Source: Myxococcales bacterium
GTDB taxonomy: Bacteria; Myxococcota; Myxococcia; Myxococcales; Myxococcaceae
Assembly (NCBI GenBank): GCA_020846875.1
Contig: JADLDB010000108.1
Coordinates: forward strand, 1-60,514
Direction of reading: 5' to 3'
Length of the DNA: 60,514 nucleotides
The notes under the pieces are model-generated. The model saw only the letters and a list, made by a program, of their open reading frames with translations. It was not told the DNA's origin and searched no databases. Of the stretch, positions 6,125-23,677 are shown piece after piece; within the stretch, counting starts at the first letter, position 1; every line of letters starts with the position of its first letter. The position numbers were made by a program, and so were the translations under genes.

Positions 6125-6652
6125 TCAGCCTCCGCCGGCCACTTGATTGCCACCCTGTCCCCCAGAGGGCATCTGCACTTCCACCTCGATGACGGCGGTG
6201 TACTGGTCGTTGTCCTGCGAGCGGCCCACCGACGTCAGCACCACCAACGGGAGGCTGTTGCCGTTGCTGATGCCCTGCTGGGCGCCGTCGAGGCCTCTGC
6301 GATCGCGCTGGAAGATGGACACGGTGTAGCGGGCCTGCGTCTCCCCTGCGAGCAGGGGCGGCGAAGAGGTGAAGGGCGGCGGAGTCGTCCCGCACGTCTC
6401 CGCTTGAGCGCACAGGGGCAGGGTCTGCCAGGACAGCCCGGTGCGCAGGCGCGCCAGCCCGTCCTGGATGCCGGCCGCGCTGTTGATGGCCGCCTGGTTC
6501 TGGAAACGCGAGCTGTCCAGCGCGGCAGCCTCGGACACCGACGTCTTCAGCACGCCGGTCGCCAACACCGTCAGCACCAGCAGCATGACCATGACGAACA
6601 CCAGGGTGTAACCACGCGGAGCGCGCCGGCTGGCTGGGAGGTGATGACTCAT
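6125..6652 (-). CDS. pilX: PilX-like minor pilin
   Basis: A 175-residue protein has a type III (prepilin) signal: a short basic leader ending RAPRG, then YTLVFVMVMLLVLTVLATGV. The residue at mature position 5 is Phe rather than Glu, as in GspK/PilX-type pilins that sit at the tip complex. The mature part is short, with cysteines near the middle (PLCAQAETCGT) and a Gly-rich tail. It is the last gene of the five-gene PilY1/minor pilin operon, 8 bp after pilW. In type IV pili, PilX joins FimU, PilV, PilW and PilY1 in the priming complex that starts pilus assembly and stays at the tip. The assignment rests on the prepilin motif and gene order. Confidence 0.85.
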   Translation of the reverse strand: MSHHLPASRRAPRGYTLVFVMVMLLVLTVLATGVLKTSVSEAAALDSSRFQNQAAINSAAGIQDGLARLRTGLSWQTLPLCAQAETCGTTPPPFTSSPPLLAGETQARYTVSIFQRDRRGLDGAQQGISNGNSLPLVVLTSVGRSQDNDQYTAVIEVEVQMPSGGQGGNQVAGGG

Positions 6653-6660
6653 GGCGAACC

Positions 6661-7812
6661 TCACTGCATCGGAAGGTAGGGATTGGGAATCTGGACGGAG
6701 GCCGAGGCCCTCATCCGGTTGAGGTCGTCCACCGGGCCCTGCGGCGCGTCGAAGCTGGCGGGAAGCCGGGCGCCGACGATGCGCTCCGCGCGGGCGGTCA
6801 ACTCGATGGTCATCGAGCGCACGTACGCCTCTTCTGGCTGAGGCAGCGCGTTGTCTCCCAGGACGCAGGGGGCTGCTGGAGCGGTGTTGCACCGGCAGAC
6901 GTTCCAGTTGGGCACGGCACCGGCGATGGCCGTGGCGGTGCAGCCCTCGACGGCCAGGTTGCCACCGTCCAGCAGCGGGCCGACGACCGGCGAGACCTGC
7001 ATGTTCTCGACGCCCAGCGCCAGGGGAGTAAACACGTTGCCGAAGGTGCCCGGGCCGGTCGCCTCCTGAAGGTACAGCCCGGTGTCCGCCCCGTTGGCCT
7101 GCTGGTAGACGACGATCCGCACCTTCTGCTCCAGCACGTACACCTCTGAGTCTGGCGTGCACGGGCAGGCCGCTCCCGACAGACAGTTGGGCCCTGCGCC
7201 CGCCGAGGCCAGGTCGTCGTCGAGGAACTCCAGCTGGAGGTTGGGGTTGCTCGGGCTCGCCGCCGCCGTCAGCCGCGCGAGGCAGGCGTCCTGGGGTTCC
7301 CACGGGTCGGTGAAGAGCACAATCTGCCCACTGGGCGCGGTGAGTTCGTTGGGGGTTGCTGGATCCTCGAGGAAGGGGTCGGCGGTGGCGAGGCGCACGT
7401 TGTTCCCCGTGCGCGCCACGGAGACCAGGCCGGTCCGCCGCATGCCGCTCGGGCTCATCGCCACCTCCAGCACGTCCGTCCCGGCGATGATGCCGGCCCC
7501 CGCCGCGCCCCGCGTCACCACGTCCGTCGTGCTCCCGTCGTAGTTTGGGAGCGTGCCGGCGGCGACGTTGTTCCTCATCCGCGCGGCGAAGCGGGCGTTG
7601 GCGAACCCGACCCCGGCGTTCGACATGCGCCGCTCCAGCTGAGAGAGCGCCAGCGACAGGGTGGCTTCGGCCGCAGAGCGCCGCCCCTGCCCCTGCGTGA
7701 ACTGGACCATGGTGATACCGGACGCCACCACCGCGGTGATGACCAGAGACGCCACGGCCACGGTGATGACCAACTCGACCAGCGTCAACGCTCTGGGGTG
7801 TAGGCGCCTCAC
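6661..7812 (-). CDS. pilW: PilW-like minor pilin
   Basis: A 383-residue minor pilin, long as is usual for PilW. The GTG start overlaps the pilV stop as GTGA, so translation is probably coupled. The leader is MRRLHPRA followed by LTLVELVITVAVASL, with Ala rather than Gly at the -1 position and the expected Glu at mature position 5. The globular part holds several Cys pairs and segments typical of PilW (MRRTGL, VRIVVYQ, MTIELTAR). PilW links the other minor pilins with PilY1 at the pilus tip. The open frame extends upstream, but the overlap and the prepilin motif define this start well. The Ala at -1 is unusual but tolerated by some prepilin peptidases. Confidence 0.88.
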   Translation of the reverse strand: MRRLHPRALTLVELVITVAVASLVITAVVASGITMVQFTQGQGRRSAAEATLSLALSQLERRMSNAGVGFANARFAARMRNNVAAGTLPNYDGSTTDVVTRGAAGAGIIAGTDVLEVAMSPSGMRRTGLVSVARTGNNVRLATADPFLEDPATPNELTAPSGQIVLFTDPWEPQDACLARLTAAASPSNPNLQLEFLDDDLASAGAGPNCLSGAACPCTPDSEVYVLEQKVRIVVYQQANGADTGLYLQEATGPGTFGNVFTPLALGVENMQVSPVVGPLLDGGNLAVEGCTATAIAGAVPNWNVCRCNTAPAAPCVLGDNALPQPEEAYVRSMTIELTARAERIVGARLPASFDAPQGPVDDLNRMRASASVQIPNPYLPMQ

Positions 7813-8312
7813 AGCGAACACCCCCGGTTGACGAACGCCGTGTAGGTATCGGCCACCTGAACGGGCGGGGCTACCTGCGGGTTCAACACGCTGGTGACCG
7901 TCACCGAAACCGTCTTGCAGCACACTCCCCCCGCGCAGCAGGCCTGACTCGTGGGGAGGGCCGTGACGTTGAAGGACGTCCCCGGCACCCCGTTGCAGTC
8001 GTCGATGACCCGCGTGTCGAACTGGATGCTGCGGCCGTCGGCGTCGTAGTCGGTGCGCGAGTAGAGCTGGCCTGGCGCCGCGGCCCCCGGCGGGATGAAG
8101 TCGAAGCCCGGCTGGGTGAAGCGAAGAAACTCGTCGTACGCCATGCGGCCCACCACGGCCCGCTTGGAAGCTCGCGCCAGCCGCGTGGAGGAATTCAGCA
8201 GCAGCGCGACCAACCCGGTGAAGCCCACCACGAAGATGATGCTTGCGATCATCGCCTCGAGCAGGCTGAAGCCGCGCCCGCCGCGACGCCGCCTGGAGAA
8301 GGAGGTCCTCAT
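7809..8312 (-). CDS. pilV: PilV-like minor pilin
   Basis: A 167-residue prepilin-like protein with a very basic leader (MRTSFSRRRRGGRG) cut before FSLLEAMIASIIFVVGFTG; Glu is present at mature position 5. The C-terminal half contains many cysteines (QACCAGGVCCKT), an unusual cluster likely to form disulfides outside the cell. The start ATG overlaps the fimU stop as ATGA, and its own stop overlaps pilW, so the three genes are translationally coupled. It is expected in the tip-priming complex together with FimU, PilW, PilX and PilY1. The FSLLEA type of N-terminus and the gene order favour PilV over other minor pilins. Confidence 0.87.
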   Translation of the reverse strand: MRTSFSRRRRGGRGFSLLEAMIASIIFVVGFTGLVALLLNSSTRLARASKRAVVGRMAYDEFLRFTQPGFDFIPPGAAAPGQLYSRTDYDADGRSIQFDTRVIDDCNGVPGTSFNVTALPTSQACCAGGVCCKTVSVTVTSVLNPQVAPPVQVADTYTAFVNRGCSL

Positions 8313-8935
8313 GGCAGATTCACCGTCCCGTCGGGCCGGACCACCACCTGCTGGTTGATGTCGTTGTTGGGAGCCGGGTACTCGAGGCGAATGGTCCAGG
8401 GTCCGGCTCCGAGCGCGGTGTGCACACTCCCCGCGGAGCAGTCGTCCGACTCGAAGGCGCTCACCTGGCCCTCGGGGTCGAACACCAACTGGATGGTCCG
8501 GTTGTCCGCGGAGGGAAGCGCCCATTCCACCGGAGCGGTGAGCATGAGGTCGACGCTGCGGGTGTCCGGCAGAGTGGCGGCCGGGTCGTACCCAGACACC
8601 GTCGGCGCCACCACGGCCGCAGGGCACGGCGCCTGAATGCAGACTTGTTGGGGCAGGGGCGCCCCCTTGCGGAAGGTGAACGCCGCCCGTGGCGGACCTT
8701 CCCCGCCCGCCCAGGTGCGGCCGCGTAGGCAGGCCACCATGGGGAAGCCCCGCGTGGTGGCCTGCGCGCGCAGCGACGACAACAACGCCCGCAGGTCCCG
8801 GGCGTCGCTGGCCACCCGCGACGAGCGCACCAGGCGGATCAGGTTGGGGGCCGAGAGCGCGGCGAGCGTCCCGATGATGGCGACCACCACCGTCAGCTCT
8901 ACCAGCGTCATGCCGCGGGCCGTTCTCGTCCTCAT
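8309..8935 (-). CDS. fimU: FimU/GspH-like minor pilin
   Basis: A 208-residue prepilin with leader MRTRTARG, then MTLVELTVVVAIIGTLAAL; Glu is at mature position 5. The LVELTVVVAIIG helix is typical of FimU/GspH pseudopilins, and the mature region continues with a helix RDLRALLSSLRAQATTRG, matching GspH topology. A Cys pair (QVCIQAPCP) lies in the beta part. The ATG overlaps the pilY1 stop as TGATG and its stop overlaps the pilV start as ATGA, so expression is tightly coupled. FimU is expected to connect the tip complex to the major pilin shaft. Confidence 0.87.
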   Translation of the reverse strand: MRTRTARGMTLVELTVVVAIIGTLAALSAPNLIRLVRSSRVASDARDLRALLSSLRAQATTRGFPMVACLRGRTWAGGEGPPRAAFTFRKGAPLPQQVCIQAPCPAAVVAPTVSGYDPAATLPDTRSVDLMLTAPVEWALPSADNRTIQLVFDPEGQVSAFESDDCSAGSVHTALGAGPWTIRLEYPAPNNDINQQVVVRPDGTVNLP

Positions 8936-11900
8936 CAGCGCACGCGCCTCCAGGACTTGACCCGGAACGGCTGGCCCACGCCACCGATGGGCAGTTGCTG
9001 GGGAGCGATACCGGCCGCGCTCCCACCCGCTCCGGCGCCTGGCATGTAGACGATGGAGTTGTTGAGGGACACCAGGTCCGAGGCGATGCCCGGGCTGGCG
9101 TAGGTGACGCGCGTCATCCGGCCGCCGCTGATCATCTGAGGTGCCGGATCCAACAACTGGGCCGCGGGGGTCTCGTTGAAACAGTACTCGGGGGAGCCGC
9201 TGATCTTGTGGAAGCAGTAGAACTTGGTGAAGCCGGCCGCCCCGCAGCCACCCGAGCCACCCGGCGGGACATAGACGGGCACGATGATGTACGGGCCGAC
9301 GATCGCCGGCTCGCTCAGCACCTTCTCGCCCGCGGCCTTGTCCAGGTACACGCCCCACAGCGTTGCGCCGTCGCAGGTCGCGCCGGTCGCGCCGGTATCG
9401 TCCTCAACCGCCCAGAAGTAGTTCTGCACGTTCAGGTCCTCCGGCACCCGGGAGTTGCCGGAGCCGACGTACACGACGTTCCGGCCGGTGCTGTCGGGCG
9501 GCAAGTCGTGGAGGCCGACGATTGGCCGAGTCCACAGCTCAGGCAGGCCTTCGGCCTGCGGGGGGTCGCTGAGGGGCATGCTCATCGTGGTCGGCGCGCT
9601 GGGGTGGTCGACGGTCGGGTTCACCGGCTTACCGCAGACGGTGGTGAACGGGTTGAACCAGATGGCTGGCTCCCAATCCCGCGCCCGGTCGCCCAGCATG
9701 TCCATGCGCAGCAGCTTGCCGTCGGTGTCACCGAAGTACACCGTCTTCACGCGCGAGCCGTCGTTGGGCCGCACCAGCCGTGCCCGGCCGGGCACGTTGT
9801 TCTTCGGCGGGCCCACCGGGTTGTTGGCCGCGTCGCGCAGCCGGTTGACCGGGTCGATGCACCACTTGGCCTTGTGGTTCCGCGCGCTGCAGCCCTCGGA
9901 GCACATCGGCTCGGCGTGGTAGCCGTTGCGCTCGGCCGGGTCCGCGTCCAGCACGTAGAAGAAGTTGCCGATGGGCCGATCCGACGGGTCCCAATCATCC
10001 CAGTCCGCCGAGCAGGAAGTCTCGCCGGTGCTCGAGTACCCACCGCCGACGAAGACGCCCCACTTGTAGGAGTCGCCCCCCAGGCGCACGCGCGCCAGCA
10101 CCGGCCCGGACTCGGTCTCACCCATGTTCTTGTCCTGCGGGTTGTTGCCGCTGGAGTTGTTGAAGTCCCACAGCCACACCGGCTCGTCGGGGTCGGAGAT
10201 GTCCAGCGCGTAGAGGTAGTTGCCTCCGCGCCCGGCCGCGCCCACCAGCACCGTGCGCCACTTGCCGCCGCTGGTGTCCTCGCAGTCGCTCTCGGAGAAG
10301 CACACGTCGCTGAGGGCCATCGCCCCGTCGAGGCCATACTTGCCGCCTTCGCGCAGGGACAGCCAGCGCTCCATCATCCGCCGCGGGGCGAAGCCCCACC
10401 TCTCGGTGCCCATCCAGGTGGCGGACGCGAGGACGGCTTCATTGGGGTCTTCGCGGATGGCGTGCAAGAGGCCCCCGTTCGACTGGACGTACACCCGCGC
10501 CTCGCGGGCCTGCATGTTGACGGTGTTGCCCGAGGCGTAGGAGTAGCTCGTCTGCGTCTTGAAGGCCTTGTACGAGGCGAAGAACTTCGTGTTCTCGAAG
10601 CTCGACCCCTCCGCCGAGATGCCGAGGTTCGGCGACGCCCAGGTGTCCGAGAAGAACGGCGCCCCGATGGCCGCCGGCTGCGAGTGGACGATGCTGGTGA
10701 GCCGCGACTTCTTCACCTGACCGTCGTTGAAGGTGCCGACCTTGATGCCGCTGCGGTCGTTGCGCACCCAGTAGACGGCCGGGTTGGCCGCCCCCCGTTC
10801 CCAGTTGTCGCACCAGCCGTTGCCGGTGATGGTCTCGGTGATTTCATCGTTGTCGCCCGAGCAGTCGTTCAGCTCGTCGACCTTCGAGGCGTGGTCGAGC
10901 CCGTTGGCCCGCGCCCAGATCTCCCGGGACGCCGCGGGCATGTTGTTCAACTGGTCGTCGAACTTCCACACCGGGCTGGAGCTCACCAGCCCGTTGGCGA
11001 TGGGGTAGGCGTCCAGGTAGCCGAAGTACTCACGGGGAGAGGTGCCGGAGTGCGCGAAGTACGCCGCGTACACCCGCTTCCCATCGGAGGTGATGGTCGG
11101 CTTGGACCGGGTGTAGTAGCCGTTGAGCTGCTGGCCGACGATGTCATTGAGCGCCGTCATCAGGGCGGTGTAGTTGGTGGCGTCGTAGGCGCTGCCGCCG
11201 ACGTCGGTGCCCGCCGCCACGGCCATCGAGTCGAGCAGCCCGCCGGCGACCCCGAAGCCGACCACGTACACGTCGATGCCGTCATTCCTCATGCCCGTCA
11301 CCACGCCCACCGGGTCGGTCCCGGTCGCGAGCGGATCCGGCTCTTCGAGGCCGTCCGTCACCAGCAGCACCGAGTACTTGCGGCACGTCGCCAGGTCATC
11401 GCCGCCCACCGCCGAGCTGTTGGTCCGCACCCAGTTGATGTAGTCGTGGGCGTTCTGCAGGGCCCCCGACAGCGGGGTCATGTCGCCGATCTCCGGCATG
11501 CGCAGGCCCATGGGGTTGCTCGCAGCGTCATAGCGCCGCAACAGCCGCTTTGGATCAGACATGTTGTCACCCCAGCGGTAGGCGGTGACACCGTATTGCC
11601 AGGCCGGCGCGACGGTGGGCGGGATCAGGCTCAAGCCCAGCTTCTTGGTGTCGAACGGACAGGTGGTGGAAGGCGCACAGGGCCCGGTGCCGGACACCTG
11701 CGTCTGCACCTCGGCGACGTCAGGCTCCGTCAGCCAACTGAACCGGTCGTAGTCCTTGTCGGGGTGGTCGAAGGGGTTGAAAGACGTGCCATCAAAGTAA
11801 TAGGGCAGCCACGAGCTGCGGGAGCCGGCGTTGTTCTGCGCCAGCCCCGAAGCCGCCAGGGAGTAGTAATCGGCTACCAGCTTCTTCGGCTGCCAGGTGC

Positions 11901-14475
11901 GCGCCACGTAGGGCTGGCCGCCCGGCTGGGTGTAGCACCAGTCGGACCAGATGGAGTTGTACCCTGCCGGGAGGTTGGGCAGCGCTCCGGTGTTGGCGTT
12001 GGGGTCACCCACCGGGCAGCCGGGCGTGGGGCCGCTGGAGTTGAAGGGCTGCAGGCGGTCCTTCGCTCCACCCGTCCCACCGCCCAGGTAGTTCGCGAAG
12101 CGCTGGTTCATCGCGGAACCCCACCGCAGCTTGCAGCGCTGCGCCGTCGCCGGGCAGCCGTCAGTCCCTGGCGCCAATTCGGCCTGGCAGTTCGCGCCGC
12201 TCGGCACCGTAAAGCCCGTCGCATCGGCGTAGGTGGCCTGCACCTGCGGGGCGTTATTGCTGAGGCAGTACTCCGAGCCCACGGGGGCAGTCGCCGGATA
12301 CTGGAGGTTGGCGGTGAGGAAGGAGCCCTGGTAGTCGCCGGCGACCAACTGGAAGTTGTACTCGAAGCGCCGACGCTGGAACTGGTAGACGTACGCGCGG
12401 TAGGCGCAGGTCGGGATCTGCTGGCTGTAGGTGTAGCGCTGCCGCGTGTACCTGCACGTGGGGCTGTTGGTCGCGGGGGTGGTCGCCCGGTAGGTCAGCC
12501 GCTTGATCTCGAAGTTGCAGATCGTCTTACCGAGGTCGGACCGCCAGGTCTTGTTGATGAACCGCGCCTGGCAGTTGTGCGCCGCGGTCACGCTGGTGCC
12601 GGCAGCGCACGGGACCGCGGTGCCGTTGTAGGTGCCGGAGGTGATGGTGAAGTTGCCCGTGTCTGTACAGGCGACGTTGCCGTCGAGCATGTACGAGTAG
12701 GCGTCCCAGGCGCCCGCGGGCTGCAGGGTGTAGGCGATGCCGTCGAGCGAGCCGCTGAGGTTGTCCGCGCGCCGGTTGGTGCGGGTGTGCGTGCAGACGC
12801 CGCCGCTCGGAGCTCCCCAGGAGGCGCTCGGGCAACTGAAGTTGTCGGTCGGTGTCGCCGACGCTCCGTTGCGGGTCAGGTCGCAGGGATTCGTAGCCGA
12901 GCAGCCGCCCCAGGAGGCCCCGTCGGTGAAGCCGGTGACGGTCGCCGGGCAGGTGCCCCCGAAGAGGCTGGCGGCGAGCGTCTGCGGACCCTGCCCGGCG
13001 GGCCCGGTGCGAGTCTGGTACTGCGTGCCGTTGATGGTGACCGGCCAGGCCGTTCCGTAGTCGCGGTACACGTTGATGGAGCTGACGTTGCTGAGCCCGT
13101 CGCCCGTGGGGTGCCGGAAATATGTGCACATGTTGCCAGCCGTGCAGTTGCCGTGAACCGCCGTCCCGTAGACGTTGGCGGCGCCGAAGCGGTCGGTGAA
13201 CTCGGAAGCGGCCCCCGCGCACGAGCCTCCGGGGATCGCCGTGGCCGGCACGTTGATGGTCTGCAGCACGCCCGTCGCGTTCAGGAACTGGGTGTCGGGG
13301 TCCGGAAGCGTGGGCGCACACAGGCCGGTGATGGCGGCCGGGTTGGTGGGGACGGTGGTGCGGCAGGCCACGTCCGGGTGCTGGTACCGCGCGCCGCTCC
13401 AGGTCGCGCCGCCCGAGGTGTTGATGGTGTTCTGCCAGGTCCAGCGCATGTTGCAGGTGCGCGCGGGCTGCCCCATGGCACAGGTGGTGTTGAGGGCGGC
13501 GGGGGCGGTGCCGCCAGCCAGGTTGCTGGCCGAGGTCATCGCCTCCGGGTTGCAGGAGAAGTCCACGCCGGGGGCGCCTGCGGCCGGCAGCGAACCGGCG
13601 TGGTTGGTGATGTCGCGCCAGTCGTTTGCCCGCCCGGGGGCCGGAGTGCCGGCGTTCCACCACAGGGCGCCGGCGCCTCCCGCGGAGATGGCGTCGTAGC
13701 GGCACTGGGTCTGGTAGCCGGCCGGGATTTCGGGGTTGGCCTTCTCCCAATACTGCTGGAAGTAGCCGGCCACCGCGAACTCGATGAGGGGCTCGGCGGT
13801 GTCCACCACGTTGTACACGGCCCGCTTGCCCAGGCAGAACTTGGAAGAGGTGTTGCCGGGCGGGCAGGGGTCGTTGCCGCAGATGACGGACGCCACGCCG
13901 AACTTCGACGTCATGTAGCAGGGGTTGCCGTCGAAGCCGTTGTCCATGTTCCAGGTGCAGCTCGCCTGGCCGAGGCAGAGCGTCTCCACCTTGGCCTTGA
14001 TGTTCTTCCAGCCGCGGTAGACGCCGGACTCCATGACGCTGCCGCTCAGGTTGCACCCGCTGGTGTTGTCGGTGGGCATGATGGTGCCCAGGTCGCAGCG
14101 GAGGTCTGACTCGGCCTGGCGCCCGTAGTAGGCGAACTCGATGGCGCTGATGGTCTGCCCGCCGGGGCAGGAGATGTTGATGTCGCTGCCCTGGTTGGCC
14201 GTGCCGCACACCCGCGTGGTGGCCCCGACGCCGGGCGGGTCGTAGTCCATGTTCGGGAACTCGGCGCTCTCGTCCGGCGCCCAGCGCATCGAGCGCGAGG
14301 TGTCGAAGATGATCAACATGCGCGGCTTCTGCGTCGCGCCGCCAAAGCCGGGCAAGCCGGCCGACTGGGCTTCCGCGTCCCCGGGGCCCATTCCAGCCCC
14401 GTGTGGGAGCAGCACGGACAGCGTCACTGCACAGAGGATGAGCTTCAGGCGAGACGCGGAATCAGGCAGGCGCAT
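8935..14475 (-). CDS. pilY1: PilY1-like type IV pilus tip adhesin with an N-terminal lectin-like domain
   Basis: A 1846-residue secreted protein, longer than most PilY1 proteins. After a signal peptide (about residues 1-37), the first strand of a VWA domain appears with the MIDAS-type motif DTSRSM (58-63). A Cys-rich block at about 88-200 follows, resembling a SUEL-type lectin (ISCPGGQTIS, YYGR, GQASCTW, FDGNPC, KFGVASVIC). A long Cys-rich region comes next, and the VWA fold resumes near residues 1000-1110 (LLVTDGLEEPDP). The C-terminal third is the PilY1 beta-propeller (GNYLYALDISDP, GPVLARV, WGVFVGGGYS). PilY1 sits at the pilus tip, promotes assembly with the minor pilins and mediates adhesion. 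The start chosen gives a good signal peptide and follows an AGGAG ribosome site. It is first in the operon. Confidence 0.93.
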   Translation of the reverse strand: MRLPDSASRLKLILCAVTLSVLLPHGAGMGPGDAEAQSAGLPGFGGATQKPRMLIIFDTSRSMRWAPDESAEFPNMDYDPPGVGATTRVCGTANQGSDINISCPGGQTISAIEFAYYGRQAESDLRCDLGTIMPTDNTSGCNLSGSVMESGVYRGWKNIKAKVETLCLGQASCTWNMDNGFDGNPCYMTSKFGVASVICGNDPCPPGNTSSKFCLGKRAVYNVVDTAEPLIEFAVAGYFQQYWEKANPEIPAGYQTQCRYDAISAGGAGALWWNAGTPAPGRANDWRDITNHAGSLPAAGAPGVDFSCNPEAMTSASNLAGGTAPAALNTTCAMGQPARTCNMRWTWQNTINTSGGATWSGARYQHPDVACRTTVPTNPAAITGLCAPTLPDPDTQFLNATGVLQTINVPATAIPGGSCAGAASEFTDRFGAANVYGTAVHGNCTAGNMCTYFRHPTGDGLSNVSSINVYRDYGTAWPVTINGTQYQTRTGPAGQGPQTLAASLFGGTCPATVTGFTDGASWGGCSATNPCDLTRNGASATPTDNFSCPSASWGAPSGGVCTHTRTNRRADNLSGSLDGIAYTLQPAGAWDAYSYMLDGNVACTDTGNFTITSGTYNGTAVPCAAGTSVTAAHNCQARFINKTWRSDLGKTICNFEIKRLTYRATTPATNSPTCRYTRQRYTYSQQIPTCAYRAYVYQFQRRRFEYNFQLVAGDYQGSFLTANLQYPATAPVGSEYCLSNNAPQVQATYADATGFTVPSGANCQAELAPGTDGCPATAQRCKLRWGSAMNQRFANYLGGGTGGAKDRLQPFNSSGPTPGCPVGDPNANTGALPNLPAGYNSIWSDWCYTQPGGQPYVARTWQPKKLVADYYSLAASGLAQNNAGSRSSWLPYYFDGTSFNPFDHPDKDYDRFSWLTEPDVAEVQTQVSGTGPCAPSTTCPFDTKKLGLSLIPPTVAPAWQYGVTAYRWGDNMSDPKRLLRRYDAASNPMGLRMPEIGDMTPLSGALQNAHDYINWVRTNSSAVGGDDLATCRKYSVLLVTDGLEEPDPLATGTDPVGVVTGMRNDGIDVYVVGFGVAGGLLDSMAVAAGTDVGGSAYDATNYTALMTALNDIVGQQLNGYYTRSKPTITSDGKRVYAAYFAHSGTSPREYFGYLDAYPIANGLVSSSPVWKFDDQLNNMPAASREIWARANGLDHASKVDELNDCSGDNDEITETITGNGWCDNWERGAANPAVYWVRNDRSGIKVGTFNDGQVKKSRLTSIVHSQPAAIGAPFFSDTWASPNLGISAEGSSFENTKFFASYKAFKTQTSYSYASGNTVNMQAREARVYVQSNGGLLHAIREDPNEAVLASATWMGTERWGFAPRRMMERWLSLREGGKYGLDGAMALSDVCFSESDCEDTSGGKWRTVLVGAAGRGGNYLYALDISDPDEPVWLWDFNNSSGNNPQDKNMGETESGPVLARVRLGGDSYKWGVFVGGGYSSTGETSCSADWDDWDPSDRPIGNFFYVLDADPAERNGYHAEPMCSEGCSARNHKAKWCIDPVNRLRDAANNPVGPPKNNVPGRARLVRPNDGSRVKTVYFGDTDGKLLRMDMLGDRARDWEPAIWFNPFTTVCGKPVNPTVDHPSAPTTMSMPLSDPPQAEGLPELWTRPIVGLHDLPPDSTGRNVVYVGSGNSRVPEDLNVQNYFWAVEDDTGATGATCDGATLWGVYLDKAAGEKVLSEPAIVGPYIIVPVYVPPGGSGGCGAAGFTKFYCFHKISGSPEYCFNETPAAQLLDPAPQMISGGRMTRVTYASPGIASDLVSLNNSIVYMPGAGAGGSAAGIAPQQLPIGGVGQPFRVKSWRRVR
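13876..14214 (-). other. Predicted SUEL-type lectin domain inside PilY1
   Basis: Residues about 88-200 of the PilY1-like protein follow the pattern of D-galactoside/L-rhamnose-binding SUEL lectins: a first Cys-Pro-Gly (SCPGGQTI), the YGR signature, further cysteines, KVETLCLGQASCTW, then FDGNPC and a final KFGVASVIC. The number and order of Cys residues match that family. The assignment is by eye and not tested by a profile search. The domain lies between the first VWA strand and the rest of VWA, that is, as an insertion. Confidence 0.65.
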
Positions 14476-14711
14476 GGTGTCTCCTGGGACGAGGCTGTGC
14501 CGCCAAAGCACGTCCCATGCCGGGTGGATCCACGGCGGAGTGTGCCCGGCTCACCTCTGGGCGCCAGAAAACACCCGGGCCCTGCGGGCGATCATCCCCT
14601 GCGGTCCGCAAACATTTCCTAGCTACAAAGTGGCGTGGGCGCATGTCGGCGGGGGGAGCACCCGGCCGGTTTCTTCGCCGGCAGGAGGGGCCGCTGGTAC
14701 CTTGCGCGGCC

Positions 14712-20766: not shown

Positions 20767-22887
20767 TCAGTTCGCCGTGCACGTCCCCACGACGCGGCAG
20801 TTGGTGCCCTCGAGGAAGTTGCAGCTCTGCGTGATGGTGTTGGCCGACGTAGCCGTGCAGTTGCCCAGCCCGCTGAGGATTTGCGCCGAGTAGCTGCTCA
20901 GCGAGAAGCCCGCGGGGCAGAAGGTGCTGGTGATGAGCGTGAAGTTCTGCGGCCCATTGGGGCACGTCTGCGCGTGGGACACGGTGGTGTACGCGCCCGG
21001 CAGCACACAGGTGCTGGTGGCGGCGGAGTTGGTGTCGCGGCAGTCGTCGCCCGCGCAGCTGATGGCGAGCCGCTGCCCGGCCGAGGGCGAGCTGCCGATG
21101 CATTGGGTCACCGCGGCGCCAGCGCACCAGGTGTCCCCGTCCCCGTCGCTGCGCACGGCGGCCAGGCGGAACAGGCCTCCGTTGGTGTCGTTGCAGTCGT
21201 CCGGCGTCTGGCAGTTGGCCGAAAAGCGCCGGCCGGAAGGGGCCGCCACGCCGACGCACTCATTCACCGTGGCACCGGTGCAGTAGGTGTCGTTGTCCGA
21301 GTCGGCGCGCGTCTGCATCAGCCGGTACAGGCTGAGGCTGGCGTCGTTGCAGTCCTCACCCACCGCGTTGCAGGACGCGGCGAAGCGGCGGCCGGGCAGC
21401 GGGGTGCTGCCCACGCAGTCCATCGACGCGCCGCCCACGCACACGGTGTCCCCGTCGGCGTCGGTGCGGGAGGACAGCAACTGCCAGCTGGAGGCGCTGC
21501 TGTCGTTGCAGTCTTCCGTGGCGGCGCAGGCGGTGACGAAGCGGCGGCCAGCCAGCGCCGTGGTGCCCACGCAGTCGTTGGAGGCCGGGCCCGCGCAGTA
21601 CCCGTCGGTGTCGGCGTCACCGCGCGAGGACACCAGGCGGTAGCGGCTGCCATTCAGCGCGTCGCAGTCCGCGCCCAGCGAAGCCGCCGGCGCCACGAAG
21701 CCCACCGGGCAGTTGCCGGCCTGCGGGCGCGCCACGTTGGGGCACTGCTGGCTGGTGGTGGTGCCGTCGGCGTAGCCGTCGCCGTCCGCGTCGGCGTTGC
21801 AGGCAATGGTGAGCGTCTCATCCACCTGCCCGTCGCAGTCGTTGTCCACGCCGTCGCACACCTCGGCCGACAGGGCGACGCAGGCGCCGTTGCACACCGA
21901 CTGGCCCCCCGGGCACTGGCAGGCGCCGGACGTGCACGCCTGCCCCGTGGCCGGGCACAGCCCCGCGCCCGCCTCGTCCACCTGTCCGTCGCAGTCGTCG
22001 TCCAGGGTGTTGCACGTCTCCGCGCTGCTCATCCCCGGCACCGCGGTGCAGGACAGGGTGCCGGCCGAGCAGACGGTGCTGCCCAGCATGGCGCAGACGC
22101 CCACCCCCATGGTGCAGGTGCCGTCTGGGTTCGCGACGCCACCATCCAGCACGCCCACGCCGCCGTCACCGGTGACGGTGGTGGCCCCGTCGTCGGGCTG
22201 GCCGTTGCAGTCGTCGTCCACGCCGTTGCACACCTCGGCCTGGGGCTGCACGGAGCAGGTGGAGAGGGCGGTGCCGCCGTCCACCACCTCGCACGTCTGG
22301 GTGCCGCGGCCGGCGCAGCAGGGCTGGGACGCGCCGGGCGTGCAACTGCAGCCCTCGTTGGCGGTGCCGTCGCAGTCCTCGTCGGCGCCGCTGGCGTCGC
22401 ACACCTCGGCCGCGGAGGGGTTTACCTGCGCGCGCGCGTCGTCGCAGTCGCTGCGGTCGTCCACGAAGCCCTGGGGCGCGGCGCAGCCCACGCGCGTCTG
22501 AGCGCCGGGCGCGTTGGAGCCGAAGCCGTCGCCGTCCGCGTCCACGGTGAAGGTGCGGCCCACGCCTTCATCCACCTCCCCGTCGCAGTCGTCGTCGACG
22601 GCGTTGCACACCTCCGTCGAGGGCTGCACGGCGCCGGTGCAGGTGGACTCGAAGTGGCCGCCCACGCAGCGCTGGGTGCCCTTGCGGCAGGCCCCCACGG
22701 CGTCGGGGCCGCAGGGGCGCGTCTGCCCGTCGGTGCAGTCCGTCGTCGTGGAGGGGGCGACGCAGGCGCCGCCTTCACACACCTGGCCGGTGGGACAGTC
22801 GAGGTGGCTCTGACACGTCGACGACGGAGGCGAAGAGGAACACGACACGAGGAGGAGGGCTGCGGTGAGGCGGAGGGAGGGGTTCAT
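20767..22887 (-). CDS. MopE-like lipoprotein with metal-motif repeats
   Basis: A 706-residue lipoprotein (signal MNPSLRLTAALLLVSC, lipobox LVSC). After a Cys-rich segment (CQSHLDCPTGQVCEGGACV) it carries about five MopE-type motifs of the form CNxxDDDCDGxxDE (CNAVDDDCDGEVDEG, CNTLDDDCDGQVDEAG, CDGVDNDCDGQVDE and relatives). These resemble the putative metal-binding motif of the copper-binding surface protein MopE of methanotrophs; by analogy they may bind calcium or copper. The C-terminal third is a tandem array of about 52-residue units, listed separately. Nearly all cysteines should be disulfide-bonded at the cell surface. It is divergent from an ECF sigma gene. Calcium- or metal-dependent surface structure is an inference. 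Confidence 0.88.
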   Translation of the reverse strand: MNPSLRLTAALLLVSCSSSPPSSTCQSHLDCPTGQVCEGGACVAPSTTTDCTDGQTRPCGPDAVGACRKGTQRCVGGHFESTCTGAVQPSTEVCNAVDDDCDGEVDEGVGRTFTVDADGDGFGSNAPGAQTRVGCAAPQGFVDDRSDCDDARAQVNPSAAEVCDASGADEDCDGTANEGCSCTPGASQPCCAGRGTQTCEVVDGGTALSTCSVQPQAEVCNGVDDDCNGQPDDGATTVTGDGGVGVLDGGVANPDGTCTMGVGVCAMLGSTVCSAGTLSCTAVPGMSSAETCNTLDDDCDGQVDEAGAGLCPATGQACTSGACQCPGGQSVCNGACVALSAEVCDGVDNDCDGQVDETLTIACNADADGDGYADGTTTSQQCPNVARPQAGNCPVGFVAPAASLGADCDALNGSRYRLVSSRGDADTDGYCAGPASNDCVGTTALAGRRFVTACAATEDCNDSSASSWQLLSSRTDADGDTVCVGGASMDCVGSTPLPGRRFAASCNAVGEDCNDASLSLYRLMQTRADSDNDTYCTGATVNECVGVAAPSGRRFSANCQTPDDCNDTNGGLFRLAAVRSDGDGDTWCAGAAVTQCIGSSPSAGQRLAISCAGDDCRDTNSAATSTCVLPGAYTTVSHAQTCPNGPQNFTLITSTFCPAGFSLSSYSAQILSGLGNCTATSANTITQSCNFLEGTNCRVVGTCTAN
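21046..21669 (-). repeat. Four tandem 52-residue Cys/Asp repeats in the MopE-like lipoprotein
   Basis: The region encodes four imperfect units of 51-53 residues. Each begins DCND or DCDA, contains RxDxDxDxxC, a CVG, and GRRF or GQRL, and ends with a Cys before the next DC. A partial fifth unit follows. The Asp-rich loops could bind calcium. Units differ enough in DNA that they are not a recent expansion. Confidence 0.8.
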
Positions 22888-22981
22888 GCCCGGCCTGACA
22901 CGACGTGCGCGACGGCTTTTCACGCGGGAGCCGAATTCCGGTAGAAGCACTCTGTTTCCAGTCACTTGGCGCGAGGCCGCG

Positions 22982-23677
22982 ATGAGCGAGGTGTCAGACA
23001 CCCCACAGGCGGGACACGCCGACGACGTGCGGCTGGCCGAGGGCTGCGCGCGGGGGGACGGGGAGGCGCTGGCCCGCTTCGACGCCGCCTTCGCGGGCCT
23101 CATCACCCGCACGGCCCGCCGCTTTGGCCCGGAGGACTTCGCGGACGACGTGGCGCAGGTGGTGCGGCGCCGGCTGCTGGTGCCTGAAGACGGAGCCCCG
23201 CCGCGCATCTCCGAGTACCGGGGCCGCGGGCCGCTGGCCGCCTTCGTCCGCGCGGTGACGGTGCGCCTGTCACTCAACGCCCGCCGCGCCCGCGGGCTGC
23301 CGGAGGTTGCGGCTGGTGACGACGCGCTGCTGGAAATGCCGGGCGGTGGGGACGACCCGGAGCTGGCCGCCATCAAGCAGCGCTACCGCGAAGAATTCAA
23401 GGCCGCCTTCGCGCAGGCGATGGGGGCGCTGGACGACGAGGCGCGCAACGCGCTGCGGCTGCACTACCTCGACGGGCTGACGCTGGCGGACGTGGGGGCC
23501 CTGTACGGCTGGTCCGTGCCCACCGCCTCGCGCCGGCTGGCGGCGGCCCGGCAGGCGTTGTTGGACGCCACCCGCGCCTGCATGAGTGAGAAGCTGAAGC
23601 TGTCGTCCACCGAGCTGGACAGCGTGCTGCGCCTCATCGAGAGCCGCCTCTCGGTGACGGGGCTGACGAGAGACTGA
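22982..23677 (+). CDS. ECF-type RNA polymerase sigma factor
   Basis: A 231-residue sigma-70-family protein with region 2 at about residues 25-95 (RFGPEDFADDVAQVVRRRLL, PLAAFVRAVTVRLSLN) and region 4 at about 150-200 (LDDEARNALRLHYLDGLTL...SVPTASRRLAAARQALLD), the latter with a helix-turn-helix. No region 3, as expected for ECF sigma factors. About 30 residues extend beyond region 4. The ATG chosen starts MSEVSDTPQAG. The gene converges with a kinase gene whose N-terminus carries an anti-sigma-like zinc finger; only 8 bp separate the stops. No separate anti-sigma gene is adjacent, so the kinase may be the regulator. It is divergent from the MopE-like gene. Confidence 0.9.
   Translation: MSEVSDTPQAGHADDVRLAEGCARGDGEALARFDAAFAGLITRTARRFGPEDFADDVAQVVRRRLLVPEDGAPPRISEYRGRGPLAAFVRAVTVRLSLNARRARGLPEVAAGDDALLEMPGGGDDPELAAIKQRYREEFKAAFAQAMGALDDEARNALRLHYLDGLTLADVGALYGWSVPTASRRLAAARQALLDATRACMSEKLKLSSTELDSVLRLIESRLSVTGLTRD

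Follow-up and report, generated by a model that had tools for sequence, protein, structure and literature searches.

A SUEL-type lectin-fold domain in the VWA loop of a myxococcal PilY1 pilus-tip adhesin

Introduction

PilY1 is a pilus-tip protein, and the N-terminal regions of PilY1 proteins are thought to decide what myxobacterial type IV pili attach to. The locus described here raises the question of whether such a region can carry a lectin-type domain and, if so, what that domain would recognize. The window, i.e., the whole stretch of 60,514 nucleotides that was analyzed (Myxococcales bacterium, family Myxococcaceae, GenBank assembly GCA_020846875.1, contig JADLDB010000108.1), encodes a PilY1 homologue in which the initial annotation had proposed an inserted domain of the rhamnose- or galactose-binding SUEL lectin type, which might recognize sugars on prey or on matrix polysaccharide and be a possible specificity module for type IV pili. 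Here, the gene and its operon, the evidence for the domain, its putative ligand-binding site, and its distribution are addressed in turn.

The pilY1 gene and its operon

The gene occupies a single open frame on the minus strand (8935..14511; approximately 1858–1871 codons), the translation of which (P0001) comprises 1858 amino acids. Because an AGGAG sequence lies just upstream of the ATG at codon 13 and a signal-sequence-like stretch lies downstream of it, this ATG is probably the start. P0001 numbering is used throughout; CDS numbering equals P0001 numbering minus 12. The C-terminal PilY1 β-propeller is recognized by PF05567 above the cut-off, and downstream of pilY1 follow four pilin-like genes in the arrangement of a minor-pilin operon, two of which reach the N_methyl cut-off (Table 1). 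The stop codon of pilY1 overlaps the start codon of the first of them, the FimU/GspH-like gene (TGATG).

The genome (7.06 Mb, estimated completeness 100, draft assembly of 200 contigs) encodes five PilT-family ATPases above cut-off. Neither a Pfam nor an alignment search of the genome delivered a second PilY1; the other matches span the VWA part only. A search of the same genome for DUF4114 gave no match, and its search controls gave none either. Elsewhere in the window, a large secreted-type open reading frame on the minus strand (20767–23376) contains repeated Cys- and Asp-rich DxDxDG-like motifs, which by eye resemble MopE metal-binding repeats.

Table 1. Features of the pilY1 locus, with positions in the window and P0001 residue numbers
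Feature	Position	Strand	Basis
pilY1 CDS	8935..14475	minus	ATG = ORF codon 13; PF05567, AGGAG, and N-terminal hydrophobic signal-like sequence
VWA strand 1 end with MIDAS motif DTSRSM, residues 70–75	14287..14304	minus	aligned with D[TN]SxSM of 8 homologues
Inserted SUEL-fold domain (predicted), residues 101–215	13867..14211	minus	PF02140, independent profile, AlphaFold model, PDB matches
Gln107, in the column of the essential glutamate	14191..14193	minus	Glu in 16 viral SUEL-like domains aligned; PMC2430599
VWA helix 1 start, KFCLGKRAVYNVV, from residue ~224	13799..13842	minus	homology with other PilY1 resumes; alignments and model
VWA second half, residues ~1009–1130	11122..11487	minus	MTPLSG (MIDAS Thr), VTDG (Asp), then VVGFG; invariant alignment columns
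PilY1 β-propeller segment, residues 1313–1496	10024..10575	minus	PF05567 E 5e-12, 45.9 bits, cut-off 28.1
FimU/GspH-like minor pilin gene	8309..8935	minus	N_methyl PF07963 above cut-off; GspH PF12019 below cut-off
PilV-like minor pilin gene	7809..8312	minus	N_methyl PF07963 above cut-off; start approximate
PilW-like minor pilin gene	6661..7812	minus	N_methyl E 0.005, below cut-off; operon order; start approximate
PilX-like minor pilin gene	6125..6658	minus	PilX_N PF14341 E 0.002, below cut-off; operon order; start approximate

Sequence and predicted fold of the inserted domain

The SUEL_Lectin profile (PF02140) gives a significant match to residues 113–203 in a scan of the protein (E 8.2e-7), with a score that is borderline against the curated cut-off of 31.4 bits: 29.7 bits were obtained in the protein scan and 31.8 bits, above the cut-off, in a frame search of the genome (13900–14175). 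An independent profile, which was constructed from viral, sea-urchin, and other myxococcal SUEL domains and from which the query sequence was left out, matches residues 101–212 (i-Evalue 3.5e-13 at Z=1000). In a phmmer search, SUL-I (5h4s), a rhamnose-binding lectin of the sea urchin, is the best match among solved structures, with an E-value of 6.9e-13 summed over three repeats and of 0.014 for the best single repeat. Together, the Pfam, profile, and phmmer matches place a SUEL-type domain, far above chance, where the initial annotation had located it. The Cys pattern and YGR signature that had led to that proposal are likewise borne out: eight cysteines are found at positions 102, 115, 139, 153, 179, 185, 198, and 211, the last four of which show the canonical 6/13/13 spacing of SUL-I repeat 1, and the YGR motif lies at residues 129–131.

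An AlphaFold2 model of residues 96–220 was computed from 16 viral SUEL-like sequences and without templates (mean pLDDT 72.5), and in this model residues ~101–215 are predicted to adopt the SUEL fold. The top 14 PDB matches found by Foldseek are all SUEL/RBL lectins (E 2.1e-6 to SUL-I), and a structural aligner returned Z scores of 11.2 to the SUEL domain of rice β-galactosidase and of 9–10 to latrophilin, SUL-I, and CSL3. The apicomplexan proteins 6z2l and 7pln (Z 8.3 and 6.2) were regarded as distant fold matches, and all remaining structures scored at most 4.5. The long loop at residues 146–166 (model residues 51–71) is modeled with a pLDDT below 50.

Insertion site in the VWA domain

The place of the domain in the chain was determined by comparison with eight same-family PilY1 homologues with a readable N-terminus, in seven of which the loop length was measured. 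In these alignments the MIDAS residues are intact, with DTSRS at 70–74 and the later Thr and Asp in invariant columns, and both flanks of the insert are homologous to other PilY1 proteins. The SUEL-fold domain is, as judged from the alignments, inserted in the loop between VWA strand 1 and helix 1: it lies between DYDPP and NTSSKFC and begins ~30 residues past the MIDAS, in agreement with its earlier placement just after the first VWA strand. A K[FW]C motif at the start of helix 1 is common to same-family PilY1 homologues, and its distance from the MIDAS is 148 residues here vs 31–56 residues in the seven homologues.

Helix 1 corresponds to residues 224–239 (model residues 185–200; pLDDT 50–60) in an AlphaFold model of residues 40–1190, which was computed with eight homologues and was used for the order of secondary structure elements only (mean pLDDT 33.9). 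Because this model of the whole VWA region is poor, an exposed position of the SUEL domain next to the MIDAS is read from the chain order. The GC content of the insert (0.672) is near that of the rest of pilY1 (0.685), and its GC3 is 0.99 vs 0.92; on this criterion there is therefore no sign of a recent low-GC import or of an obvious chimera.

The sugar-binding site

In latrophilin-1, the key bonds to rhamnose and galactose are made by two residues, a glutamate that follows the first cysteine and the lysine of loop 2; E42Q, E42D, K120R, and all other replacements made at these positions either sharply lowered binding or eliminated it (PMC2430599). In the myxococcal domain, the glutamate in the turn between strands 1 and 2 (E42 of latrophilin-1) is replaced by Gln107, while the loop-2 lysine (Lys120) is conserved as K203. 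Loop 2 reads NPCYMTSK instead of DPCPGTYK: the Asp of DPC is changed to Asn196, Gly117 to Met200, and Tyr119 to Ser202. Apart from the lysine, only the equivalents of Tyr63 (Y129) and Arg65 (R131) are kept, and loop 1 is extended by ~20 residues compared with relatives.

Because of Gln107 and the altered loop 2, the domain is unlikely to be a simple rhamnose/galactose lectin, and the rhamnose/galactose recognition that had been proposed at first is not supported by these residues. The best reading of the sequence is a ligand-binding role with changed specificity, for which the ligand may be a glycan or a protein.

Proposed role and alternative explanations

We consider it reasonably probable that the locus encodes a type IVa pilus-tip adhesin PilY1 that carries, in its VWA loop, a SUEL/RBL domain that binds a ligand and gives specificity. 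In this mechanism, the SUEL domain would be exposed at the pilus tip beside the metal-site face of the VWA domain, where its ligand would be either a protein or a glycan of a surface or of the matrix, though not simple rhamnose or galactose. Binding would confer attachment specificity on the pilus, and on retraction the pull would be transmitted to the pilus through the VWA domain and the propeller. That the domain acts as the specificity module of the tip is plausible because PilY1 is a pilus-tip protein and this one is the sole PilY1 in the genome. The initial proposal of a specificity module for type IV pili may hence stand in its general form, and the part of it that concerns rhamnose and galactose is not supported.

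A more tentative possibility is a protein-binding module comparable to that of latrophilin, which would contact a protein on another cell or elsewhere in the pilus-tip complex. The nearest structural matches include solved complexes in which latrophilin SUEL domains are bound to teneurin-2 and TOL-1, the sugar-site residues are degraded, and several animal SUEL domains are also devoid of sugar-site residues (PMC2430599). The similarity is, however, one of fold and not of contact surface, and no partner is known.

A classical SUEL lectin that binds l-rhamnose or d-galactose on the lipopolysaccharide of prey or on matrix polysaccharide appears improbable. Such a lectin would agree with the predicted SUEL fold and with the conserved Y129, R131, and K203, but the glutamine in place of the essential glutamate corresponds to E42Q, by which rhamnose and galactose binding of latrophilin-1 was sharply lowered or eliminated (PMC2430599), Gly117 and Tyr119 are replaced by Met and Ser in the sugar loop, and loop 1 exceeds that of the relatives by ~20 residues. 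Similarly unlikely is a structural spacer that extends and stiffens the VWA loop through its disulfides and binds nothing itself. Many myxococcal PilY1 proteins indeed have a long Cys-rich sequence without a recognized domain in the same loop, but a spacer would not need an entire ligand-binding fold that retains its Cys frame, and Lys203 and the YGR motif are kept. An assembly or gene-calling artefact, which might be suspected for a single case in a draft assembly of 200 contigs, is highly improbable, as the uninterrupted frame (~1858–1871 codons) spans both junctions, the flanks are homologous on either side, and GC and GC3 are near those of the rest of the gene.

The locus offers a compact, known, and expressible ligand-binding fold in the organism’s only PilY1, which allows for a direct test of tip specificity.

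Distribution of SUEL domains and of the arrangement

SUEL domains are found in 6 of 195 Myxococcota genomes by profile search and in 9 of 195 by more sensitive alignment, with the present genome included in both counts. The same 195 genomes deliver ~150 PilY1-family matches, and the other myxococcal SUEL matches that were examined belong to pectate lyase, LamG-type, and other large proteins, none of which is a PilY1. In one of these genomes, SUEL is fused to a pectate lyase (L033:4860-6365). The named PilY1 homologues are Myxococcaceae MAGs, and the genomes listed in the family of the present one come from these same contigs, by which the organism is assigned to the Myxococcaceae. None of the 80 named loci among the PilY1-alignment relatives contains a SUEL domain. 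A peptide-pattern scan of genome contigs gave no close relatives with the same arrangement. In a Pfam scan of 65 PilY1-type or VWA N-termini, SUEL occurs only in this PilY1, and Golvesin_C only in one acidobacterial protein. Among the genomes and loci covered here, the SUEL-in-PilY1 arrangement occurs in one genome only.

With this domain as query, no SUEL relatives were detected in plasmid and phage records, and viral scans with myxococcal SUEL queries gave no matches. An alignment of animal-type SUEL domains recovered 34 viral loci, which were used for the structure alignment. SUEL-like domains are encoded on IMG/VR viral contigs (L128–L161), mostly in open reading frames of 300–970 amino acids; in most of these viral domains the disulfide cysteines are lost, while the EG/EN turn, FASYGTP, and NDVFGDPCxGxxK are retained.

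Comparison with known systems

According to a 2026 survey of myxobacterial PilY1, vWFA and DUF4114 were the only N-terminal domains identified so far in published PilY1 proteins, and the survey makes no mention of lectin or SUEL (PMC13190605), and nothing relevant was found in literature searches for SUEL in pili or for PilY1 with golvesin or Gal_Lectin. Myxococcus xanthus PilY1.3 and other VWA-type PilY1 proteins (clades 1.3 and 1.5–1.7; PMC13190605, PMC9109919) have the N-terminal VWA domain, the long Cys-rich region, the C-terminal propeller, and the minor-pilin operon in common with the present protein but are without a reported SUEL domain. PilY1.1 and PilY1.2 of M. xanthus also combine PilY1 with a proposed sugar-binding N-terminal domain; there, DUF4114 replaces the VWA domain, whereas SUEL lies inside it here. 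In Streptococcus sanguinis, the minor pilins PilC and PilB carry a ConA-like lectin and a VWA module, respectively (PMC9934059). Lectin and VWA modules thus also meet at that type IV pilus tip, but on pilins, in two separate proteins, and with another lectin fold, instead of in one PilY1. Since the survey names only vWFA and DUF4114 and the S. sanguinis modules are located on minor pilins, the present protein unites a familiar adhesin and a familiar fold in a combination, and at a site, for which the literature searched contains no earlier description.

With SUL-I, CSL3, the lectin domain of latrophilin, and the C-terminal domain of rice β-galactosidase, the inserted domain has the fold, the YGR motif, and the SUL-I-type Cys frame in common. 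It differs from these SUEL/RBL lectins in the glutamine that replaces the sugar-site glutamate, in NPCYMTSK instead of DPCPGTYK, in the longer loop 1, and in its bacterial pilus context.

A PilY1-like protein of the Acidobacteriota MAG OFTM328 (L121:3447-4691) also carries a module in the VWA strand 1–helix 1 loop, which is Golvesin_C and not SUEL. Because golvesin occupies the same loop there, it is conceivable, at a rather speculative level, that this loop beside the metal site is a general insertion site for exchangeable ligand-binding modules. On this hypothesis, the binding of a ligand would be linked mechanically to the VWA domain, which senses force, and pili would evolve new specificities as one module is exchanged for another; the loop common to the SUEL and golvesin insertions suggests that changes of tip specificity may follow such a rule. 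In many other myxococcal PilY1 VWA domains (L173–L202), no Pfam ligand-binding domain is recognized in the strand 1–helix 1 loop, which comprises 100–200 variable and often Cys-rich residues.
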